Source: a virus. Taken from it: DNA of 31,781 nucleotides. Positions 6,118-16,527 of this stretch are shown here, one piece after another (the first letter of the stretch is position 1; every line of letters begins with the position of its first letter). A program made the translations under genes and the position numbers. Below the pieces are notes generated by a model that saw nothing but the letters and a program-made list of their open reading frames with translations, was not told the origin of the DNA and ran no database searches. The stretch lies in IMG/VR virus record IMGVR_UViG_3300009320_000078, positions 1 through 31,781 of that record; one strand, given 5' to 3'.

Positions 6118-6693
6118 ATGGATAAAAACGAAATCCAATCCATCGAACATTTCGCGTACCCCACCCCTTTTAACTTAGAGCTTAAAGAATTAGGACTCAT
6201 CCCATATCGCACCAACTCGCGGTTGGAAGAAAAAATTAGATGGCTCTTCTCTCACCCACACTACATCCATAGAGATATTTTCATAGACGTTGCGTCTGAT
6301 GGCTCTAAAGGATTGGTCAAGGACATGGCTATTAAGGCTGTAGGTATTATGCGACATTTCTTAGAAAACCCGCAACAGTACGGGCATAGTGCCGACAATA
6401 TCCATATGCAGATTCTTGTTCGTATGTGGAGACAAGTGTATCGCCACAAGAAGTTCCAACGTAAGAACGTTACGCAATATATCGCTGCAAAGATGCGACT
6501 ATTGAGCATAGAGAACGGACTGATAGAAGAATTAATACGCACTTGCACGGATAAAGACTATGTGCAACACGGTGATGATATGATTAAGAAGCGTGAAGGT
6601 GTGGGTCTTCGTGAAAAACGTAAACCTAAAAAGAAGCGTAGGAAAAGCACGGGTAAAAACTATATGGATTATTTATGTAGTTTGGATGAATAG
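6118..6693 (+). CDS. Hypothetical protein with basic C-terminus (191 aa)
   Basis: Starts with AAAGG 7 bp before the ATG, and a TATAAT at 6075-6080 may be its -10 box, though the -35 is poor. The protein is helical, with IRWLFSHPHYIHRDIFID and LVRMWRQVYRHKKFQRKNVTQYIAAKMRLLSIENGLIEELIR, then a strongly basic stretch at 157-183 (KKREGVGLREKRKPKKKRRKS) and an acidic end. The basic region suggests RNA or DNA binding. It is the only plus-strand gene left of the control region and is antisense to any transcript from the 6926 promoter; its last codons form one arm of a 25-bp inverted repeat. G+C by eye is near 42%, higher than the early genes. Family not recognised. Confidence 0.8.
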   Translation: MDKNEIQSIEHFAYPTPFNLELKELGLIPYRTNSRLEEKIRWLFSHPHYIHRDIFIDVASDGSKGLVKDMAIKAVGIMRHFLENPQQYGHSADNIHMQILVRMWRQVYRHKKFQRKNVTQYIAAKMRLLSIENGLIEELIRTCTDKDYVQHGDDMIKKREGVGLREKRKPKKKRRKSTGKNYMDYLCSLDE

Positions 6694-7041: not shown

Positions 7042-7182
7042 TAGCCTTTTCTCATCATCGCCTCACAAGCTACAATACGCAAAAGCTAGACGGCTATCAA
7101 CTTAACACTCTACTAGGGTTATTAAATGCATCACGTTACCACGCTTTAAAGCTATGAAGTAGGCACTTATCATGCAGTAATG

Positions 7183-7324
7183 TTCAAATGTTCAAATGTT
7201 CAAATGTTCAAATGCTACACATCACTCAAATGTTCAAATGTTCAAATGTTCAAATGTTCAAATGTTCAAATGCTACACATCACCCAAATGTTCAAATGCT
7301 ACACATCACCCAAATGTTCAAATG
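7183..7324. repeat. Array of 8-bp TTCAAATG repeats in higher-order blocks
   Basis: CAAATG occurs 14 times: four tandem TTCAAATG units from 7183, five full units from 7233 (after a partial one at 7227), then two short blocks at 7285 and 7311. Blocks are separated by three copies of CTACACATCAC(T/C)C. The 8-bp period does not match the DNA helix, so successive units turn around it. No coding signal: the open frames across it are just the repeat read as MFKCSNVQ. It sits between divergent promoters. Candidate iteron cluster, packaging/terminal element, or variable tandem repeat. Confidence 0.85.
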
Positions 7325-7349
7325 TTCACCACGCGTCACACACGCACAC

Positions 7350-7704: not shown

Positions 7705-8232
7705 ATGACACAACTTATCAACAAAAATGAGACACTTAACAAAATTGGAGCGGTACTTGTAAAAGCTAAAGATGACAGGGCAACTATTATTAATGAAGTT
7801 ATAGACGTTATTATCGCTGAAGCTAAAAACCATACGGAACATTTTACTACTAAACGTAAAGCACAAAAATTTGTAATCGAGTATATGCTTGAAGGTATGA
7901 ACAGAGATGATGTGAACACGTACACCAAACGTGCACTATATGTTGCTAAGGCAATTTTAGTGGATGGTTACACCATTAAAAAGGAGTCTTTGACACTTGC
8001 ACAAGCAGAAAACGCGGTCAAATGTGAAAAGTCAAAAGTTAATAAAGCTATGAAAACAACTGATGAAGATGATTATATCGCGACTATAAAAGCACTTATC
8101 AAATTGCGTGAGATAGATAGTGCAATGAAGACTATAGCGACTTTAGGCGGTACTGATATGCTAGATGCGATTAAATCAACTTTTGGAGATGATGCTAAGA
8201 AACTTGTGAACGCGATGCAAAAAGTCCTTTAA
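7705..8232 (+). CDS. First early protein, function unknown (175 aa)
   Basis: First gene after the tandem early promoters, with AAGGAAA before the ATG. Acidic/basic mixed helical protein: TEHFTTKRKAQKFVIEYMLEGMNRDDVNTYTKRALYVAKAIL in the middle, and a C-terminal helix ending in VNAMQKVL. No transmembrane segment or catalytic motif is visible. Being expressed first from a strong promoter, a host-takeover or regulatory role is plausible, but this is inference from position. The family is not recognised. No terminator follows; a small hairpin (GGTATTAGTATACC, around 8253-8266) lies before the next gene. Confidence 0.8.
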   Translation: MTQLINKNETLNKIGAVLVKAKDDRATIINEVIDVIIAEAKNHTEHFTTKRKAQKFVIEYMLEGMNRDDVNTYTKRALYVAKAILVDGYTIKKESLTLAQAENAVKCEKSKVNKAMKTTDEDDYIATIKALIKLREIDSAMKTIATLGGTDMLDAIKSTFGDDAKKLVNAMQKVL

Positions 8233-8297
8233 GGGCTTAAACAACATTAGGAGGGTATTAGTATACCTGAACCAACAAAAGCAATTAAGGGGCTAAC

Positions 8298-8660
8298 ATG
8301 AGTAACGAACAAACAACACAAGATAGATTAAGAAACCAAGTACTACACATAGTAAACACTATTGAAAATGGTATTGAAGTAACTGAAAACAACAAAGATG
8401 AATACTATGATTTAGAAGTAGGTGATTATATAAGCGGATTTGATTACTTGCAGGACGTACTAGGCATTACCTATACGGTATCAAGTGACAAAGAGTATTT
8501 AGGTGCTAATCTATTAGTTGCTTTTGGTGGACCAAACATAACCATAGACACTAGAAATAGAACTGTAAACGGTTATTGGTGGGGTGACAATGTATCTATC
8601 TCATACAATGAAGACAACATAGGCTTAGATGATGCACTAGAAGAGTTATATAATAGTTAA
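8298..8660 (+). CDS. Conserved-type phage protein with GGPNI...GYWWGD motif (120 aa)
   Basis: AAGGGG ribosome site 8 bp before the ATG. The N-terminal half is acidic and helical; the C-terminal half has YLGANLLVAFGGPNITIDTR, then GYWWGDNVSISY and DDALEELYN. From memory this run (VAFGGPN ... WIDT ... GYWWGD ... LDDALEELY) belongs to a family found in many phages and plasmids, with no known function that I can name; treat that recall as unverified. Position as second early gene points to a role in early takeover. It contains neither enzyme motif nor membrane segment. Confidence 0.8.
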   Translation: MSNEQTTQDRLRNQVLHIVNTIENGIEVTENNKDEYYDLEVGDYISGFDYLQDVLGITYTVSSDKEYLGANLLVAFGGPNITIDTRNRTVNGYWWGDNVSISYNEDNIGLDDALEELYNS

Positions 8661-8730
8661 TAGTTTATAGGGTACTCAATAGAGTATCTTATTAAGCTAT
8701 TAAGGGCTTGTAGCGTCACTTTAATACTAA

Positions 8731-8832
8731 TTAAGGGTTTATATCTATAGTGATAGATTTTGAACCCTTAACGGTCTTAAAAACAGCGGTATAAACAAAT
8801 CGATGTTATTTTTATGCGGTCATAGTGATGAC
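8731..8832. other. Hairpins with AGTG loops in the 8661-9133 gap
   Basis: TTAAGGGTT (8731-8739) and AACCCTTAA (8763-8771) enclose an inner stem ATCTAT-AGTG-ATAGAT (8743-8758), one long compound hairpin shortly after the 120-aa gene. A second, GTCAT-AGTG-ATGAC, follows at 8819-8832 with the same AGTG loop. The first may be a terminator without a T-run. The stretch to 9011 shows no credible gene; a GTGAC(AC)GCG motif occurs twice (8866 and 8886 areas). Confidence 0.45.
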
Positions 8833-9011
8833 TTAAAAAAGTAAAAAATAATATCCATGCAAGGCGGGTGACACGCGGGAACACATATCCCAAAAGTGAC
8901 GCGATATTTAATTTATTATTGTTATGTTCATAGTATGATTCGTGCCTCCGATGGTATAAAGAAGACAAGATACAAGTCCACGAGAGTATTTAAAAAGCAA
9001 TTAATTAACAT

Positions 9012-9114
9012 CTAAATGTGTAGCGAACATTTAGGGCTAAATGCTATGAAGCGTGATTAACCACGCGTTAAGGATTCGTCCTTTTCATTGAGGAGTATTA
9101 AAACTAAACTCCTC
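9012..9114 (+). promoter_or_regulatory. Structured leader of the MoxR cassette (candidate regulatory RNA)
   Basis: Four successive hairpins in about 100 nt: CTAAATGT (9012-9019) with ACATTTAG (9027-9034); GCGTG/CACGC around 9051-9066; AAGGA-TTCG-TCCTT (9070-9083, a TTCG tetraloop); and GAGGAGT (9090-9096) with ACTCCTC (9108-9114). The middle arm ACATTTAG can instead pair with CTAAATG (9037-9043), so alternative folds are possible. It ends 20 nt before the 44-aa gene at 9134. Regulatory RNA is inferred, not shown. Confidence 0.45.
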
Positions 9115-9133
9115 ATAAAAAGGATATTATCAC

Positions 9134-9268
9134 ATGAGTAAATCACAACTAGACTACTTCATAGCTTTAGGGCTAAAGACGTCAAGAGAGGTATCGGAAT
9201 TTAGAGCTTTAAGAGCATTGTATTCTGAAGATGAAACAATAAAAATAATAACTATGCAAAGGGGTTAA
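9134..9268 (+). CDS. Small protein opening the MoxR cassette (44 aa)
   Basis: ATG at 9134 has AAAGGA 8 bp upstream; the frame ends TAA two bases before the MoxR-like ATG. The product starts MSKSQLDYFIALGLKTSREV and then EFRALRALYSEDETIKIITM. The SREVSEFRALRALY portion is helical and charged. No family recognised. Its immediate 2-bp spacing to the ATPase gene argues for cotranscription and a shared job. A TTTAGGGCTAAA motif in its coding sequence (9166-9177) matches one in the leader (9030-9041). Confidence 0.7.
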   Translation: MSKSQLDYFIALGLKTSREVSEFRALRALYSEDETIKIITMQRG

Positions 9269-9270
9269 TT

Positions 9271-10344
9271 ATGAGTGATTTAGGAAAGGCATTAGAGCCA
9301 TTTATTAAAACTGTAGTGGCTGAACACGTAGACGGAATGAACATTGAAGAGCAGATTAAAAGTCAAATAGAGGACGTATCCTCATCTATTACAAAGGTCT
9401 TAGAGATTAGATTAGAGGGTGCTGAAGAGGGTGAAATAATCCCACTTACACATATGCAGTTTGAAACACTTTTGAGAGTTATGGCTATTCAAGGTAAAAA
9501 TACACTCTTAACGGGCGGTGCTGGGCTGAGTAAGTCAACAGCAGTTATACAAGGTGCTAAGGCGTTAAGGCTTGGATTCCAACAGATTTCATTTAGTAAT
9601 CAGACCACTAAAACGGATTTAATCGGATTCGTTGATGCACACGGTAAATATCAAATGAGTGGGTTTATTGATGCCTTTATGCACGGTAAAGTGTTTCTAG
9701 CTGATGAAATGGATGCGTGTTCAAGTAACGTATTAGTGCTTTTAAACAGTGCGATATCAAATGGTATTATCCAACTCCCTAACAGCGATATAGTGGAAGT
9801 ACATGACAACTTTAGATTTGTAGGAACAGCAAACACTAACTTAAGAGGGTCTAAAGATGGATTTACAGCACGTAACAAATTGGATGCGGCGACCATTGAT
9901 AGATTTGTAGTAATTGAATGGTTACTTGATGAAAATCTTGAAGAGAAACTTACTAACAACGATTCATGGCTTAAAATTGTTCGTAAATGTAGAGCAACAG
10001 CTGAAAGAATGCTTGACGGTGTAAGTATCACACCACGTTCAAGTTATGACGGTGCAGATTTACTTAAAGCTGGATTCACAGCAGATGAAGTAATCGAAAT
10101 GACTGTTATTAAAGCTATGGGTACAGATGAAAGAAATACCCTATTAGATGGTATTACTGAGCGTATGAAAAAGAACGCGGAGAAGGATGCTAAAACACCC
10201 TCAAATGATAAAGAATCTGAAGAGACGGCTGAGGAAGTGGCTGAAGATGAGATTGAAGAGACGGCTGAGGTTCTTGACTCTAATGAGATAACTGATGAAA
10301 ATGTTGAGGATGCTATGAGCGTAAAACCTGAATATGAGTGGTAA
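9271..10344 (+). CDS. MoxR-like AAA+ ATPase
   Basis: 357 residues. Walker A is GGAGLSKST (residues 82-90), Walker B VFLADEMDA (141-149), sensor 1 VGTANTN (184-190), arginine-finger region DRF (210-212), and TPRSS near 255 as a sensor-2-like site. This set is the MoxR/AAA_5 pattern of ATPases that remodel complexes, usually acting with a VWA-domain partner; the next gene supplies a candidate. Residues 1-60 are a helical N-terminal region, and 300-357 is an acidic Glu/Asp-rich tail (EETAEEVAEDEIEET), probably disordered and partner-binding. Ribosome site AAGGGG. MoxR ATPases are uncommon in T7-like phages. Substrate unknown. Confidence 0.9.
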   Translation: MSDLGKALEPFIKTVVAEHVDGMNIEEQIKSQIEDVSSSITKVLEIRLEGAEEGEIIPLTHMQFETLLRVMAIQGKNTLLTGGAGLSKSTAVIQGAKALRLGFQQISFSNQTTKTDLIGFVDAHGKYQMSGFIDAFMHGKVFLADEMDACSSNVLVLLNSAISNGIIQLPNSDIVEVHDNFRFVGTANTNLRGSKDGFTARNKLDAATIDRFVVIEWLLDENLEEKLTNNDSWLKIVRKCRATAERMLDGVSITPRSSYDGADLLKAGFTADEVIEMTVIKAMGTDERNTLLDGITERMKKNAEKDAKTPSNDKESEETAEEVAEDEIEETAEVLDSNEITDENVEDAMSVKPEYEW

Positions 10345-10368
10345 CATAAAAAATAAAAAGGATTAACT

Positions 10369-11295
10369 ATGGAGGATATTAAGTTTATAAAAGATAGTGA
10401 CGAGTTCACTAACAAGTATTTTAAAACAGTTCAAAAAGCTCCTTTTTGGCTTGAAAGTTCTTATGATGAGCTTATCAAAAAGAACAAAGGTAAAGAACAG
10501 CCTATTAGGTATATTCATATACCTAGTCTAGTAAACTTTAAAGAGTTTATGAAAGAGTCCTCAAATGACCCACGCTGGTTAGGTGCTCAAAATAAAAGCT
10601 CTATTAACCTTTCAAGTAATGGTTGGGCTGGTTCAACTAACTGGGATGAGTATATGCTTTTATTAGAAAACGGTGATGACAGAGTTATAGAACAGATTAA
10701 AAGTGATACAGCGACAGCGGTTACTGAGCTTGAACATAAATATGAGCAAGTATTATCACACTATAAGTTTGATGTTGTGGGTGAGTTCTTTGATATTGGA
10801 CTTGTGTTAAGTGGTGTTCCTGAAACTTGGTTAGACCCTCAGTTTGACGAAGAGCAAGGTGAAAAACCTCAAATAGCTTTGAGAATTGATGCTGATTTTA
10901 CTGGTGGTGTTAATAGTGCGACTGTAATTAAAAACAGTGGACGTATTATAGCTATGGGCAAAATTCTTGAAAGAATGGGTTGTGAAGTGTCTATCGATTT
11001 ATATAATATTTGTAATAGATGGACTACATGGGGTGAACCTGAAATATTGATTCAAGAATTTACAGTTAAGAGATTTGATGAGAGTATAAATTATAAAAAA
11101 CTTAGCAGTCTATTAACTACTGGTTACGTCAGACGAGCTCAATTTAGAATCATGGAAGTGCTCAGACCTAAAGATGTCAGTCATGGTTATGGTGGTTCAA
11201 TACACTTGGACGGATTCGTAAGAATAGACAGCAGTGCTCAGATAGATGGGCTGGAAGAAAATTTGTTTAAAGGATTTACAGATGGAAACGATTAA
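10369..11295 (+). CDS. VWA-like partner of the MoxR ATPase (DUF7192-like)
   Basis: 308 residues, 24 bp after the ATPase gene, good ribosome site (AAAGGA). The centre reads PQIALRIDADFTGG, then IKNSGRIIAMGKILERMGCEVSIDLYN: a strand with an Asp-containing loop, a helix and a second strand, which is the start of a Rossmann-like VWA fold. The usual MIDAS DxSxS is absent (DADFTG instead), so metal binding may be lost or altered. The N-terminus carries NDPRWLGAQNKSSINLSSNGW. I recall a phage family called DUF7192 beside MoxR genes with this look; unverified. Likely co-acts with the ATPase. The last 14 bp overlap the next gene. Confidence 0.65.
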   Translation: MEDIKFIKDSDEFTNKYFKTVQKAPFWLESSYDELIKKNKGKEQPIRYIHIPSLVNFKEFMKESSNDPRWLGAQNKSSINLSSNGWAGSTNWDEYMLLLENGDDRVIEQIKSDTATAVTELEHKYEQVLSHYKFDVVGEFFDIGLVLSGVPETWLDPQFDEEQGEKPQIALRIDADFTGGVNSATVIKNSGRIIAMGKILERMGCEVSIDLYNICNRWTTWGEPEILIQEFTVKRFDESINYKKLSSLLTTGYVRRAQFRIMEVLRPKDVSHGYGGSIHLDGFVRIDSSAQIDGLEENLFKGFTDGND

Positions 11296-11611
11296 AAAGT
11301 TTAAAAAAGGTAACGTTTATATTGGAAGATTTAAAGGGTTTGGAGCATGGTATGTAATTCATCAAGAGGGTCAACGTACATGGACAGCAACTAACTTTAC
11401 TCATATTAATATTGAGACGGAAGGCGATGATGTTATTAGAAATAACTCAACTATGGCTGAGAGTTTTGAAAAAATACAGAGCTTTGACAAAACGAATGTA
11501 GAAGATAGAAAAAATATGAGAGAAGTCATGTTTAAGATTCTTAAATGGGGAGACCCTGAAGCGGATAATGAATCTGAAAATGATGAAGAGTATAATGTTC
11601 ATTGGGGCTGA
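11282..11611 (+). CDS. Small protein with AWYV module, acidic tail (109 aa); possibly fused to next gene
   Basis: Start METIKKFKKGNVY at 11282 is preferred over the upstream in-frame ATG at 11246 because AAAGGA lies 8 bp before it. The first half is basic, with YIGRFKGFGAWYVIHQEGQRTWTATNF; the end turns acidic (DPEADNESENDEEYN) and then stops at HWG. The next frame continues with the same acidic character (AEDDEPSSSPNNDEWEEAEEE). One base less in the GGGG run at 11605-11608 would join both into a single protein of about 215 residues with two AWYV modules. No function recognised. Confidence 0.65.
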   Translation: METIKKFKKGNVYIGRFKGFGAWYVIHQEGQRTWTATNFTHINIETEGDDVIRNNSTMAESFEKIQSFDKTNVEDRKNMREVMFKILKWGDPEADNESENDEEYNVHWG

Positions 11612-11930
11612 AGATGATGAACCGTCCTCATCACCCAATAATGATGAGTGGGAGGAAGCAGAGGAAGAGGTGGATGGAGGAACAAATACGGAGGATGAAG
11701 ATGAAGGAGGAGTTCAACAGACAATATCTACTAATGAATTAATATCTGAAGTATATAAGAGGTATGATTTTATGTTAAATAATGCTGGTAATGCTTGGTA
11801 TGTTATGAATAAAGAAACCGGTGAGTCCTTGTTACCTGACGGTAGAGAAGTGCCAAACTATAGAAGATTTGGTGAAGATAAAAATAAAGCTTACAAGCTT
11901 ATAATCAAAAAATTAAAAGAGGAAAAATAA
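11568..11930 (+). CDS. Acidic protein with AWYV module (120 aa as opened; start uncertain)
   Basis: The first 14 codons (MNLKMMKSIMFIGA) overlap the previous gene and look like its acidic codons read out of frame, so they are probably not real. From about residue 15 the protein is acidic and low-complexity, then folds into YKRYDFMLNNAGNAWYVMNKETGESLLPDGREVPNYRRFG and a lysine-rich helix. The NAWYVMNKETG stretch mirrors GAWYVIHQEG in the preceding gene. Either there is a separate start further in, or it is the second half of one frame-shifted gene. TAA ends one base before the next ATG. Confidence 0.55.
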   Translation: MNLKMMKSIMFIGAEDDEPSSSPNNDEWEEAEEEVDGGTNTEDEDEGGVQQTISTNELISEVYKRYDFMLNNAGNAWYVMNKETGESLLPDGREVPNYRRFGEDKNKAYKLIIKKLKEEK

Positions 11931-11931
11931 A

Positions 11932-12339
11932 ATGAAAAAGATAACAGAAATTGAAATAGATACGAACACGAGCATTATCCATAATATATTTGGATATAAA
12001 ACTGAAGAAGAATTTCTTGAAGTGTTAGTTGGTGATGGAGATAAATCTAAGAAAACTAAACATCTCACATGGTTGTTCATGGAGCTCATTAAAGACAATA
12101 TTGGACAGATGTATATGGGTTATCTCATGGGTAAAATACTAAGCATTGTAACTGGATTGGAGGTAGATAATCCAGCTAAAATTATTGATTATATCAATAA
12201 ATGTATGACAGATGAAGAGCTTGAAAGATTATTTATAGATGGGATGACAGTGTCGATGCAAATCTTTGGTGAGGATGGGAAACCTAAAGGTATGGATGAA
12301 ATTGTAAAAGGTATTATGAATGGCAAAGAAGGTAAGTGA
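11932..12339 (+). CDS. Hypothetical protein (135 aa)
   Basis: GAGGAAAAATAAA precedes the ATG. The protein is helical and acidic: EEEFLEVLVGDGDKSKKTKHLTWLFMELIKDNIGQMYMGYLMGKILSIVTGLEV, then PAKIIDYINKCMTDEELERLFIDGMTV and a short Gly-rich end. No catalytic or membrane signature; the hydrophobic LMGKILSIVTGL is too short and amphipathic for a clear TM. It follows the MoxR cassette and overlaps the CI-like HTH gene by 20 bp. Family not recognised. Confidence 0.75.
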   Translation: MKKITEIEIDTNTSIIHNIFGYKTEEEFLEVLVGDGDKSKKTKHLTWLFMELIKDNIGQMYMGYLMGKILSIVTGLEVDNPAKIIDYINKCMTDEELERLFIDGMTVSMQIFGEDGKPKGMDEIVKGIMNGKEGK

Positions 12340-12532
12340 TTTCAAAGATGTTAGAGACCGTATGAAGAATCATAGCGGTCAAGGTTTACAACAAATGTTA
12401 ACTGATATGGGTATTTCTCGAAGACATTATAATAGATGTTTAGGGAAGAATCAAATACCCTATAAAGGTTTAGTTGATTGGTGTATGAAAAATGATGCTA
12501 AATTAGATGAAATATTATTAGAGGAGAAATAA
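12320..12532 (+). CDS. CI-like helix-turn-helix DNA-binding protein (70 aa)
   Basis: Residues 20-67 (GQGLQQMLTDMGISRRHYNRCLGKNQIPYKGLVDWCMKNDAKLDEILLEE) match the layout of the phage CI-repressor HTH: a helix, 'G(I/V)SR...' turn, recognition helix, then 'IP...LV.W....A.LD.IL' at the end of the domain. No cleavage or dimerisation domain follows, so it is a stand-alone small regulator. Start ATG at 12320 lies within the end of the previous gene, with AAAGG upstream. A regulator inside the early operon could act on the palindromes at 7350-7485 or on the early promoters; untested. Confidence 0.6.
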   Translation: MAKKVSDFKDVRDRMKNHSGQGLQQMLTDMGISRRHYNRCLGKNQIPYKGLVDWCMKNDAKLDEILLEEK

Positions 12533-12534
12533 AA

Positions 12535-13062
12535 ATGGGATTATATATAGAACCTGAGATTAACAAATTGATGTGGTGTGAAAGACATGGGATACGTTTA
12601 ACTAATGTAGATAAAGAGTTTTACAACAATACTCCTGAAGGTTATATACTGGTATGTCTTGTAGACAATGGAGCTTTTCATGCTGGGCTTGTAGCGTTTA
12701 ATAGGCAAGAGTTTAACTATGTTTTAGATAATCCTGATAACAGACCTAAAACATGGTATCTTATTCAAAAGAGAGATGTTAAAAGTGTCTCACCTCGATG
12801 GGATGATTTTATGGGTGCTCAAAAGGCTTGGTATAAACGTATAAGTTTTAGCTGGAAAGGTTTAGGTGTTGAGTTGATTAAAATGGCGTTGATTATAGCC
12901 ATCCTACTGAATGTAATAGTTTTAAGTGTTATGTTTGAGTGGGTGTTCCCTATAATAGGTTTAATGGTTATAGGTATTTATGAAATATTGGTAGAGTTCT
13001 CACCTACTTTCAAACAGTACGCTGGTAATACGGTATTTAAAATAAAGGATGAACAATGTTAA
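12535..13062 (+). CDS. Predicted two-TM membrane protein (175 aa)
   Basis: GAGGAG before the ATG. Residues 1-105 are soluble, with PEGYILVCLVDNGAFHAGLVAFNRQEFNYVLD and a basic KRDVKSVSPRWDDF stretch. Two hydrophobic helices follow: about 113-132 (ELIKMALIIAILLNVIVLSV) and 134-153 (FEWVFPIIGLMVIGIYEILV). The short tail FKQYAGNTVFKIKDEQC is probably on the same side as the N-terminus. Early membrane proteins of phages often modify the host envelope or block superinfection; nothing here distinguishes these. Its end overlaps the next gene by 7 bp. Confidence 0.75.
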   Translation: MGLYIEPEINKLMWCERHGIRLTNVDKEFYNNTPEGYILVCLVDNGAFHAGLVAFNRQEFNYVLDNPDNRPKTWYLIQKRDVKSVSPRWDDFMGAQKAWYKRISFSWKGLGVELIKMALIIAILLNVIVLSVMFEWVFPIIGLMVIGIYEILVEFSPTFKQYAGNTVFKIKDEQC

Positions 13063-13379
13063 GTTACATAGGAAATGATAAGTATATGTTCTATACTTCA
13101 AGCGGTAAAGAGATTGAGATGACAAAAGATGAGATTGGAGAGCTTGTGGTAGTTAGCACTACTCAAGAAATCTTTTGTCCGAGCAATATTTGTGATGACT
13201 ATTTCACAAATGAAAAATTGTTAGAGGAGCTTGGAGAGTATGCTAGTAGTGCAGACAGTGATGCCAATACTATCGACAATTTTGACAAGTCATGTTGTGA
13301 TGAAAGAGAGGGTGAGACGTTGAGAAACGTGTTTAACTATCTTGATAAACTACTTAAAAAGTATAGACAACTCGAGTAG
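13056..13379 (+). CDS. Acidic hypothetical protein (107 aa)
   Basis: AAAGGATG before the ATG, overlapping the membrane-protein stop. Opening LSYIGNDKYMFYTSSGKEIEMTKDEIGELVVVSTTQEIFC is strand-rich; later EYASSADSDANTIDNFDKSCCDEREGETLRNVFNYLDKLLKKYRQLE is helical, with two adjacent cysteines. Family not recognised. It is the last gene of the early block, and the candidate origin follows directly after its stop codon. Confidence 0.75.
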   Translation: MLSYIGNDKYMFYTSSGKEIEMTKDEIGELVVVSTTQEIFCPSNICDDYFTNEKLLEELGEYASSADSDANTIDNFDKSCCDEREGETLRNVFNYLDKLLKKYRQLE

Positions 13380-16128: not shown

Positions 16129-16527
16129 ATGAAAATCGCAATTACAATAGACACTAACAGTAGAGAAGATATAATCGAGGCGGTAGAGTTATTAAGTGGT
16201 ATGTTATATGCTCACGATGAGGTTATACCGACTAAACCGACTAAACCGACTAAACCGACTAAACCGACTAAACCGACTAAACCAGCTAAACCTGAAGTAA
16301 ATGAAGTAAATGAAGTAGTTAAACCTGAAGTAGCTGATGAGGAAACTGAACCTGAAGAAACCTCTGTATCTCTTACTGAATTAAAGAGAGCCGCTAAACA
16401 AGCTTCTGATAGAAGTGACCGTGAGACGGTACTTAAAACTATCAAGAGATACGGTGCTAAGTTAGCTGATGTTACAGAAAATAACTATCAAGCTCTATTC
16501 AATGAACTTGAAAAAGTAGGAGCTTAA
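16129..16527 (+). CDS. Phage protein with TKP-repeat linker (132 aa)
   Basis: Three parts: residues 1-33 (MKIAITIDTNSREDIIEAVELLSGML), a proline/lysine linker of six TKP units plus AKP, then a helical domain (SLTELKRAAKQASDRSDRETVLKTIKRYGAKLADVTENNYQALFNELEKV). The C-terminal domain, of the type 'L.D.R.A......R..V..L...G..KLADV....Y..L...L', recurs in phage single-domain proteins near recombination genes; the role is unknown to me. AAAAGGAA before the ATG. It sits between primase and nuclease genes in the replication operon. Confidence 0.7.
   Translation: MKIAITIDTNSREDIIEAVELLSGMLYAHDEVIPTKPTKPTKPTKPTKPTKPAKPEVNEVNEVVKPEVADEETEPEETSVSLTELKRAAKQASDRSDRETVLKTIKRYGAKLADVTENNYQALFNELEKVGA
16231..16284 (+). 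repeat. Six 9-bp ACTAAACCG units (TKP linker)
   Basis: Five exact ACTAAACCG copies and one ACTAAACCA in frame, encoding Thr-Lys-Pro. The identity of synonymous positions indicates recent slippage expansion. Length is likely to differ between relatives. Confidence 0.9.

Follow-up and report, generated by a model that had tools for sequence, protein, structure and literature searches.

An AAA+ ATPase and a DUF7192 protein, probably a VWA-like fold without the MIDAS motif, form a conserved gene pair in diverse phages

An ATPase-DUF7192 pair in a phage early region

The window analysed here, a 31,781-nucleotide stretch, is the whole of a 31.8-kb virus record (IMG/VR record IMGVR_UViG_3300009320_000078) that encodes an AAA+ ATPase followed by a member of the DUF7192 family. 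Virion and lysis genes occupy the minus strand, and the plus strand carries a long block of early genes between 6118 and about 26600; the pair sits between early genes and a set encoding primase, nuclease, single-stranded DNA-binding protein (SSB) and polymerase, away from the late genes. The open reading frames (ORFs) of 9134-13379 exist as the initial annotation of this DNA had them. Its description of the phage as T7-like holds for the particle, since capsid, tail-tube, head-tail connector and terminase fall into T7-type or general families in a family scan, whereas the replication genes (a PriCT-2 primase, a DUF2800/PD-(D/E)XK nuclease, an Enc34-type SSB, a phrog_1252 DNA polymerase and an SNF2-type helicase) belong to other families without T7-type matches. 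The pair and its motifs are as follows.

9271-10344, plus strand: MoxR/CobS-type AAA+ ATPase, 357 amino acids (AAA_5; phrog_249, 'porphyrin biosynthesis'; profile and fold matches)
9514-9540, plus strand: Walker A, GGAGLSKST, with Ser instead of Gly before Lys (alignment of 67 ATPases)
9691-9708, plus strand: Walker B, VFLADE (motif and alignment)
10171-10341, plus strand: acidic C-terminal tail ending in -EYEW (composition, model, lineage comparison)
10369-11295, plus strand: DUF7192 partner, 308 amino acids, predicted VWA-like Rossmannoid fold without a canonical metal-ion-dependent adhesion site (MIDAS) (PF23822, model, fold comparison)
10888-10902, plus strand: DADFT at the place of the MIDAS motif DxSxS (family alignment)

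The product of 9271-10344 is a MoxR/CobS-type (helix-2-insert) AAA+ ATPase, and families, profiles, fold and motifs all bear out its initial description as MoxR-like. It matches AAA_5 in Pfam (5.2e-14) and phrog_249 in PHROGs (1.5e-43); its best small solved relatives in a profile search are CobS (1.1e-21), CbbQ and NorQ, with the giant midasin also found, and its model (predicted local distance difference test score, pLDDT, 84) is closest in fold to NorQ (Foldseek 1.3e-14) and CbbQ. MoxR-type signatures were found (helix-2 hairpin, Walker B DE, sensor-1 TANT, arginine finger and sensor-2 arginine), and ring assembly and ATP hydrolysis are predicted. The Walker A motif departs from GxxGxGK[ST], the closest relatives among the 67 aligned ATPases likewise having SK or AK. 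The long acidic tail noticed at the outset is confirmed by 22 D/E against 5 K/R in the last 57 residues and by low pLDDT (below 50 for residues 325-357, which are disordered). An acidic tail with a terminal Trp occurs in six members of this phage's lineage (EYEW, EFEW, DFSW, VLPW, GFNW and AFKW), while two members (L012:5980-7104 and L013:2781-3905) instead have a zinc-ribbon-like C4 cysteine pattern in the C-terminal tail that by eye resembles the topoisomerase type.

The downstream product matches PF23822 (DUF7192) with 62.5 bits (5.5e-17; curated cut-off 27) and is also a member of phrog_1909. Its AlphaFold2 model, built with 57 relatives (pLDDT 87.6), finds as best PDB matches the VWA domains of NorD from structures of its complex with NorQ (E 9.9e-4, probability 1.00); in a viral structure library other DUF7192 proteins come first and phage CobT/VWFA proteins next. 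No VWA or CobT model of Pfam matches any of the 57 relatives, so that the VWA assignment is a structural one, and a PDB sequence search with DUF7192 returned nothing relevant. The protein thus probably has a VWA-like fold, best likened to the NorD VWA domain; the assignment is only probable because Foldseek gave low TM-scores (0.23-0.27) for NorD VWA, and a profile-profile comparison with cyanophage VWA proteins by hhalign found nothing. The low scores, and the absence of VWA families from the sequence and profile matches, would suit an unrelated fold that merely adjoins the ATPase, but the top structural matches are specifically NorD VWA domains complexed with the structural kin of the ATPase, and phage CobT/VWFA proteins follow; we give the unrelated fold little credence.

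At the place of the MIDAS, none of 69 aligned DUF7192 family members has the canonical DxSxS, the commonest residue at the MIDAS position being Asn (32 members) and the second Asp (10). Loss of the MIDAS is therefore a trait of the DUF7192 family rather than a peculiarity of the window protein. The initial annotation, which had described the partner as VWA-like but lacking the normal motif, is supported in both respects by the fold match to NorD VWA and by the DADFT sequence and its relatives.

These results also bear on the label 'porphyrin biosynthesis' (vitamin B12 synthesis) under which the pair is often annotated. A role as viral cobaltochelatase subunits (CobST), which would capture host CobN and boost cobalamin, has been proposed for viral cobST genes (PMC8651126), is implied by that label, and agrees with the profile match of the ATPase to CobS. 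Yet the ATPase matches none of the CobS models of NCBIfam and is nearest in fold to NorQ and CbbQ, the partner family lacks the MIDAS and, in 57 relatives, any CobT/VWA Pfam match, and no CobN-like gene is present among the window proteins scanned. With CobS and CobT features missing, we rejected cobalamin synthesis as the main role; the CobST reading is very improbable, and the label is misleading.

The two genes are paired across genomes

A scan of IMG/VR seeded with the ATPase alignment, which worked where the DUF7192 alignment was too divergent to serve as seed, gave 461 relatives, 80 of which were fetched. DUF7192 neighbours, detected by profile without using position, lie on the same strand in nearly every fetched locus, and in two initial exceptions the record ends at or just past the ATPase gene. 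Combining IMG/VR loci, phage records and bacterial-genome loci into 85 non-redundant loci, we find the same-strand pair in 84, with 64 pairs within 120 nt and a median gap of 28 nt; the sole unpaired locus, that of cyanophage syn9, encodes a CobT-type partner of about 700 amino acids upstream, with a MIDAS. The ATPase is present in 236 Staphylococcus and 70 Listeria phage records, and DUF7192 in equal numbers of each, and the pairwise distances of one protein correlate with those of the other (r=0.67; shuffle maximum 0.24), part of this correlation being due to shared phylogeny.

The pairing is far above chance. A neighbourhood survey in other phages was a check named beforehand, and neighbours are not random: the DUF7192 partner is favoured, every other neighbour family is confined to 10 or fewer of the 85 loci, and no PHROG accounts for more than 5 of 150 immediate neighbours. 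Hundreds of sequenced phages carry the pair, among them Kayvirus phages of Staphylococcus and P100-type phages of Listeria, and their virions differ widely (Herelleviridae, mycobacteriophages such as Rumpelstiltskin, podoviruses). Single-protein searches of viral_contigs with both genes returned only one 15.9-kb contig, with identical proteins, and a plasmid search gave no match.

As observations on copy number, one locus (L082:7072-7887 and 7817-8848) has a single ATPase followed by two consecutive DUF7192 genes, and a Mycobacterium DUF7192 query matched 99 records at 174 places, some records having several.

The initial annotation had envisaged a dedicated module in which small acidic proteins, a CI-like regulator and a two-transmembrane protein assist the ATPase and its partner. 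The conserved pair is what stands of this proposal. Only two other genes track with it, and within this phage's lineage only:

7705-8232, plus strand: early protein of 175 amino acids upstream of the pair, absent where the pair is absent (lineage conservation)
11282-11611, plus strand: small protein of 109 amino acids directly downstream of DUF7192, third module member in the lineage (recurrence in lineage loci)

The alleged helpers do not travel with the pair in the fetched loci. Genes of 11568-12532 and 13056-13379 have no homologues there beyond the phage's own near-identical contig, and searches of Pfam, PHROGs and NCBIfam with the CI-like regulator (12320-12532) gave no significant match; the 12535-13062 product, whose hydropathy is consistent with two transmembrane segments, has one homologue (L133) and a weak one (L017). 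We therefore rejected the multi-gene module as proposed, most helpers being without homologues beside the pair elsewhere.

A syntenic relative, the 22.9-kb fragment L135, has homologous virion genes, a homologue of 6118-6693 and the primase, and between the latter two it lacks the ATPase, DUF7192 and the homologues of 11282-11611 and 7705-8232 alike. Three longer relative records (41-45 kb) retain the pair. The two genes were thus gained or lost jointly, and the pair appears dispensable in at least this relative, unless it is located in the unsequenced part. Members of the lineage that carry the module and those that lack it lend themselves to a natural comparison. The lineage module is also carried by a 5.9-kb contig (L094) binned as Candidatus Sabulitectum, with an ATPase 65% identical; this is probably a phage contig inside a metagenome-assembled genome bin.

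DUF7192 in cellular genomes

DUF7192 is rare in sampled bacteria (4 of 296 species, 1 of 295 species and none of 14 control genomes). In two bacterial loci it is fused to a DarT-like ADP-ribosyltransferase:

L103, 1105-3036: DUF7192-DarT-like ADP-ribosyltransferase fusion adjoining a MoxR-type ATPase
L104, 8723-10690: DUF7192-DarT-like ADP-ribosyltransferase fusion adjoining a MoxR-type ATPase

The L104 locus is chromosomal, as it lies beside rpoC and metabolic genes, and the gene after its fusion (10632-11357) encodes a DarT1-associated NADAR antitoxin (1.6e-65). By sequence, the two loci look like a chromosomal toxin-antitoxin system of bacteria in which DarT is coupled to MoxR/VWA, which suggests a tie between DUF7192 and conflict systems; a wider search for DarT fusions found nothing beyond these two. 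Separately, DUF7192 proteins of two Planctomycetota contigs (L105:1693-3189 and L106:8372-10054) have a long N-terminal extension that includes a CxxC..CxxC region and whose upstream part may be an over-extended open frame.

A candidate remodelling machine

From the families and predicted folds of the two proteins, the missing MIDAS, the pairing and the joint absence from one related record, we propose, with a probability of about 0.68, that the pair is a phage-owned AAA+ remodelling machine that acts early in infection with DUF7192 as its obligate ring adaptor. The model follows the NorQ-NorD system, in which the VWA domain lies in the concave face of the hexamer with a finger inserted into the pore, and successive ATP-binding steps rotate it, twisting the client (PMC13036017). 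The phage ATPase would form a MoxR-type hexameric ring, DUF7192 would be seated in it as the NorD VWA domain is in NorQ, presumably plugging the pore, and ATP-driven ring movements would be passed through DUF7192 to twist or pull on a client. NorD MIDAS mutants keep NorQ binding and lose function on the client (PMC9976466), so loss of the MIDAS is compatible with ring binding, and DUF7192 is predicted to differ from NorD in client recognition rather than in ring binding: because the MIDAS is lost, the client would be contacted through a surface other than that used by NorD, CbbO or CobT. The machine would be made with the early genes and act on a phage or host complex in the non-structural phase; the Kayvirus transcriptome papers searched do not mention the ATPase.

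Several points weigh against this proposal. The TM-scores to NorD VWA and the hhalign result have been given above, and the structural support comes from single-chain models, all structure predictions being of single chains. ATP turnover could be lowered by the variant Walker A; the distance correlation is in part phylogenetic; and few of the immediate neighbours have an assigned function.

What might the machine act on? Virion assembly has a viral precedent in p618/p892 of Acidianus two-tailed virus (ATV) and has been proposed for jumbo-phage MoxR-vWA genes (PMC7824862), and MoxR-VWA pairs mature large complexes. The window pair, however, is grouped with early and replication genes on the strand opposite the virion genes, and in most loci with a terminase nearby it lies on the strand opposite that gene; the collinear relative L135 lacks the pair yet has homologous virion genes, and the pair accompanies the very different virions listed above. 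A virion-assembly chaperone is accordingly improbable.

A second alternative is a counter-defence or host-takeover device that takes apart or inactivates a protein complex of the host. Early gene position, dispensability in one relative, a broad but patchy distribution, the existence of cellular MoxR-vWA conflict systems (PMC7159879) and the two DarT fusions all fit this idea, but the pair has no match in PADLOC-DB and no recurrent defence or anti-defence neighbours in the loci surveyed, and sampled Staphylococcus and Listeria phages keep it as a unit that is core-like rather than accessory. We regard such a device as rather unlikely.

For the remodelling machine proposed here, DNA-metabolism complexes are the leading, if weak, guess for the client. 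The window pair precedes primase, nuclease, SSB and polymerase genes; a primase lies directly downstream of the pair in Alteromonas phage PT11-V19, and a sliding clamp near the ATPase in cyanophages; the acidic ATPase tails are SSB-like with a terminal Trp; and rare cellular DUF7192 proteins are fused to DarT. Against this client it must be said that position, tail shape and rare fusions are the whole of its support. A more speculative version, which might possibly hold, would make the pair a distinct machine that remodels DNA-replication or ssDNA complexes, docking by an acidic, SSB-like tail that ends in an aromatic residue, and whose adaptor cells fused to a DarT-like DNA ADP-ribosyltransferase at least twice, once with a NADAR antitoxin, as a conflict system. 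If true, this would set the machine apart from metal-chelatase and virion-assembly MoxR-VWA pairs.

Relation to known MoxR-VWA systems

The initial suggestion of an undescribed system was too strong: phage MoxR-VWA or cobST pairs have been published for Bacillus phage 0305phi8-36 (PMC2147016), cyanophages and archaeal viruses (PMC8651126) and jumbo phages (PMC7824862). The general MoxR-VWA or 'CobST' idea in tailed phages is thus known, and it is the MIDAS-less DUF7192 branch that is absent from the papers searched; DUF7192 is not mentioned in this literature, which left out most subscription papers. The window proteins are members of PF23822/phrog_1909 and phrog_249, and the DUF7192 entry has no functional description.

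NorQ-NorD shares with the phage pair the ATPase fold and helix-2 insert, a partner whose VWA domain is nearest to the predicted DUF7192 fold, and adjacent genes; NorD, however, has a MIDAS, a long N-terminal domain and a linker, whereas the phage partner has about 280-310 amino acids and no MIDAS, and the phage pair has no nitric-oxide reductase (NOR) client, the enzyme into which NorQ-NorD inserts iron. The cobST genes of cyanophages and haloarchaeal tailed viruses (PMC8651126) likewise combine a CobS-like ATPase, under the same annotation, with a VWA-type partner, but the cyanophage partner has about 700 amino acids, a DWSGS MIDAS and a peptidase annotation and is encoded upstream, whereas DUF7192 is short, MIDAS-less and usually downstream of the ATPase. 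Jumbo-phage MoxR-vWA-metallopeptidase genes (PMC7824862) and ATV p618/p892 follow the same logic of a virus-encoded MoxR plus VWA chaperone, with a different partner architecture and a proposed virion role at odds with where the pair lies in this phage. MoxR-vWA ternary conflict systems (PMC7159879) also join MoxR to VWA, some of their VWA domains lacking MIDAS aspartates, and have effector fusions; the phage pair lacks the third component, and an effector (DarT) occurs in rare cellular relatives only. Seen as a probable VWA adaptor that lacks the MIDAS, DUF7192 would give a large gene family, so far unexplained, a mechanism that can be tested, and it raises the question of how a MoxR-VWA machine recognises its client when the MIDAS is missing.

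Other features of the region

Upstream of the module, about 475 nt (8660-9134) contain no long plus-strand ORF; an Rfam search of this stretch gave no match, and a promoter scan did no better than on shuffled sequences. In one relative (L128:12619-15151) the DNA polymerase homologue is divided between two ORFs about 600 nt apart, for which an intron or an insertion is possible. The early-region intergenic stretch at 7179-7328 is a tandem array of about 18 copies of the 8-nt unit AATGTTCA, with a 58-nt higher-order unit, and at 16227-16292 a nine-nt repeat encodes a (KPT)n stretch within the 16129-16527 protein.

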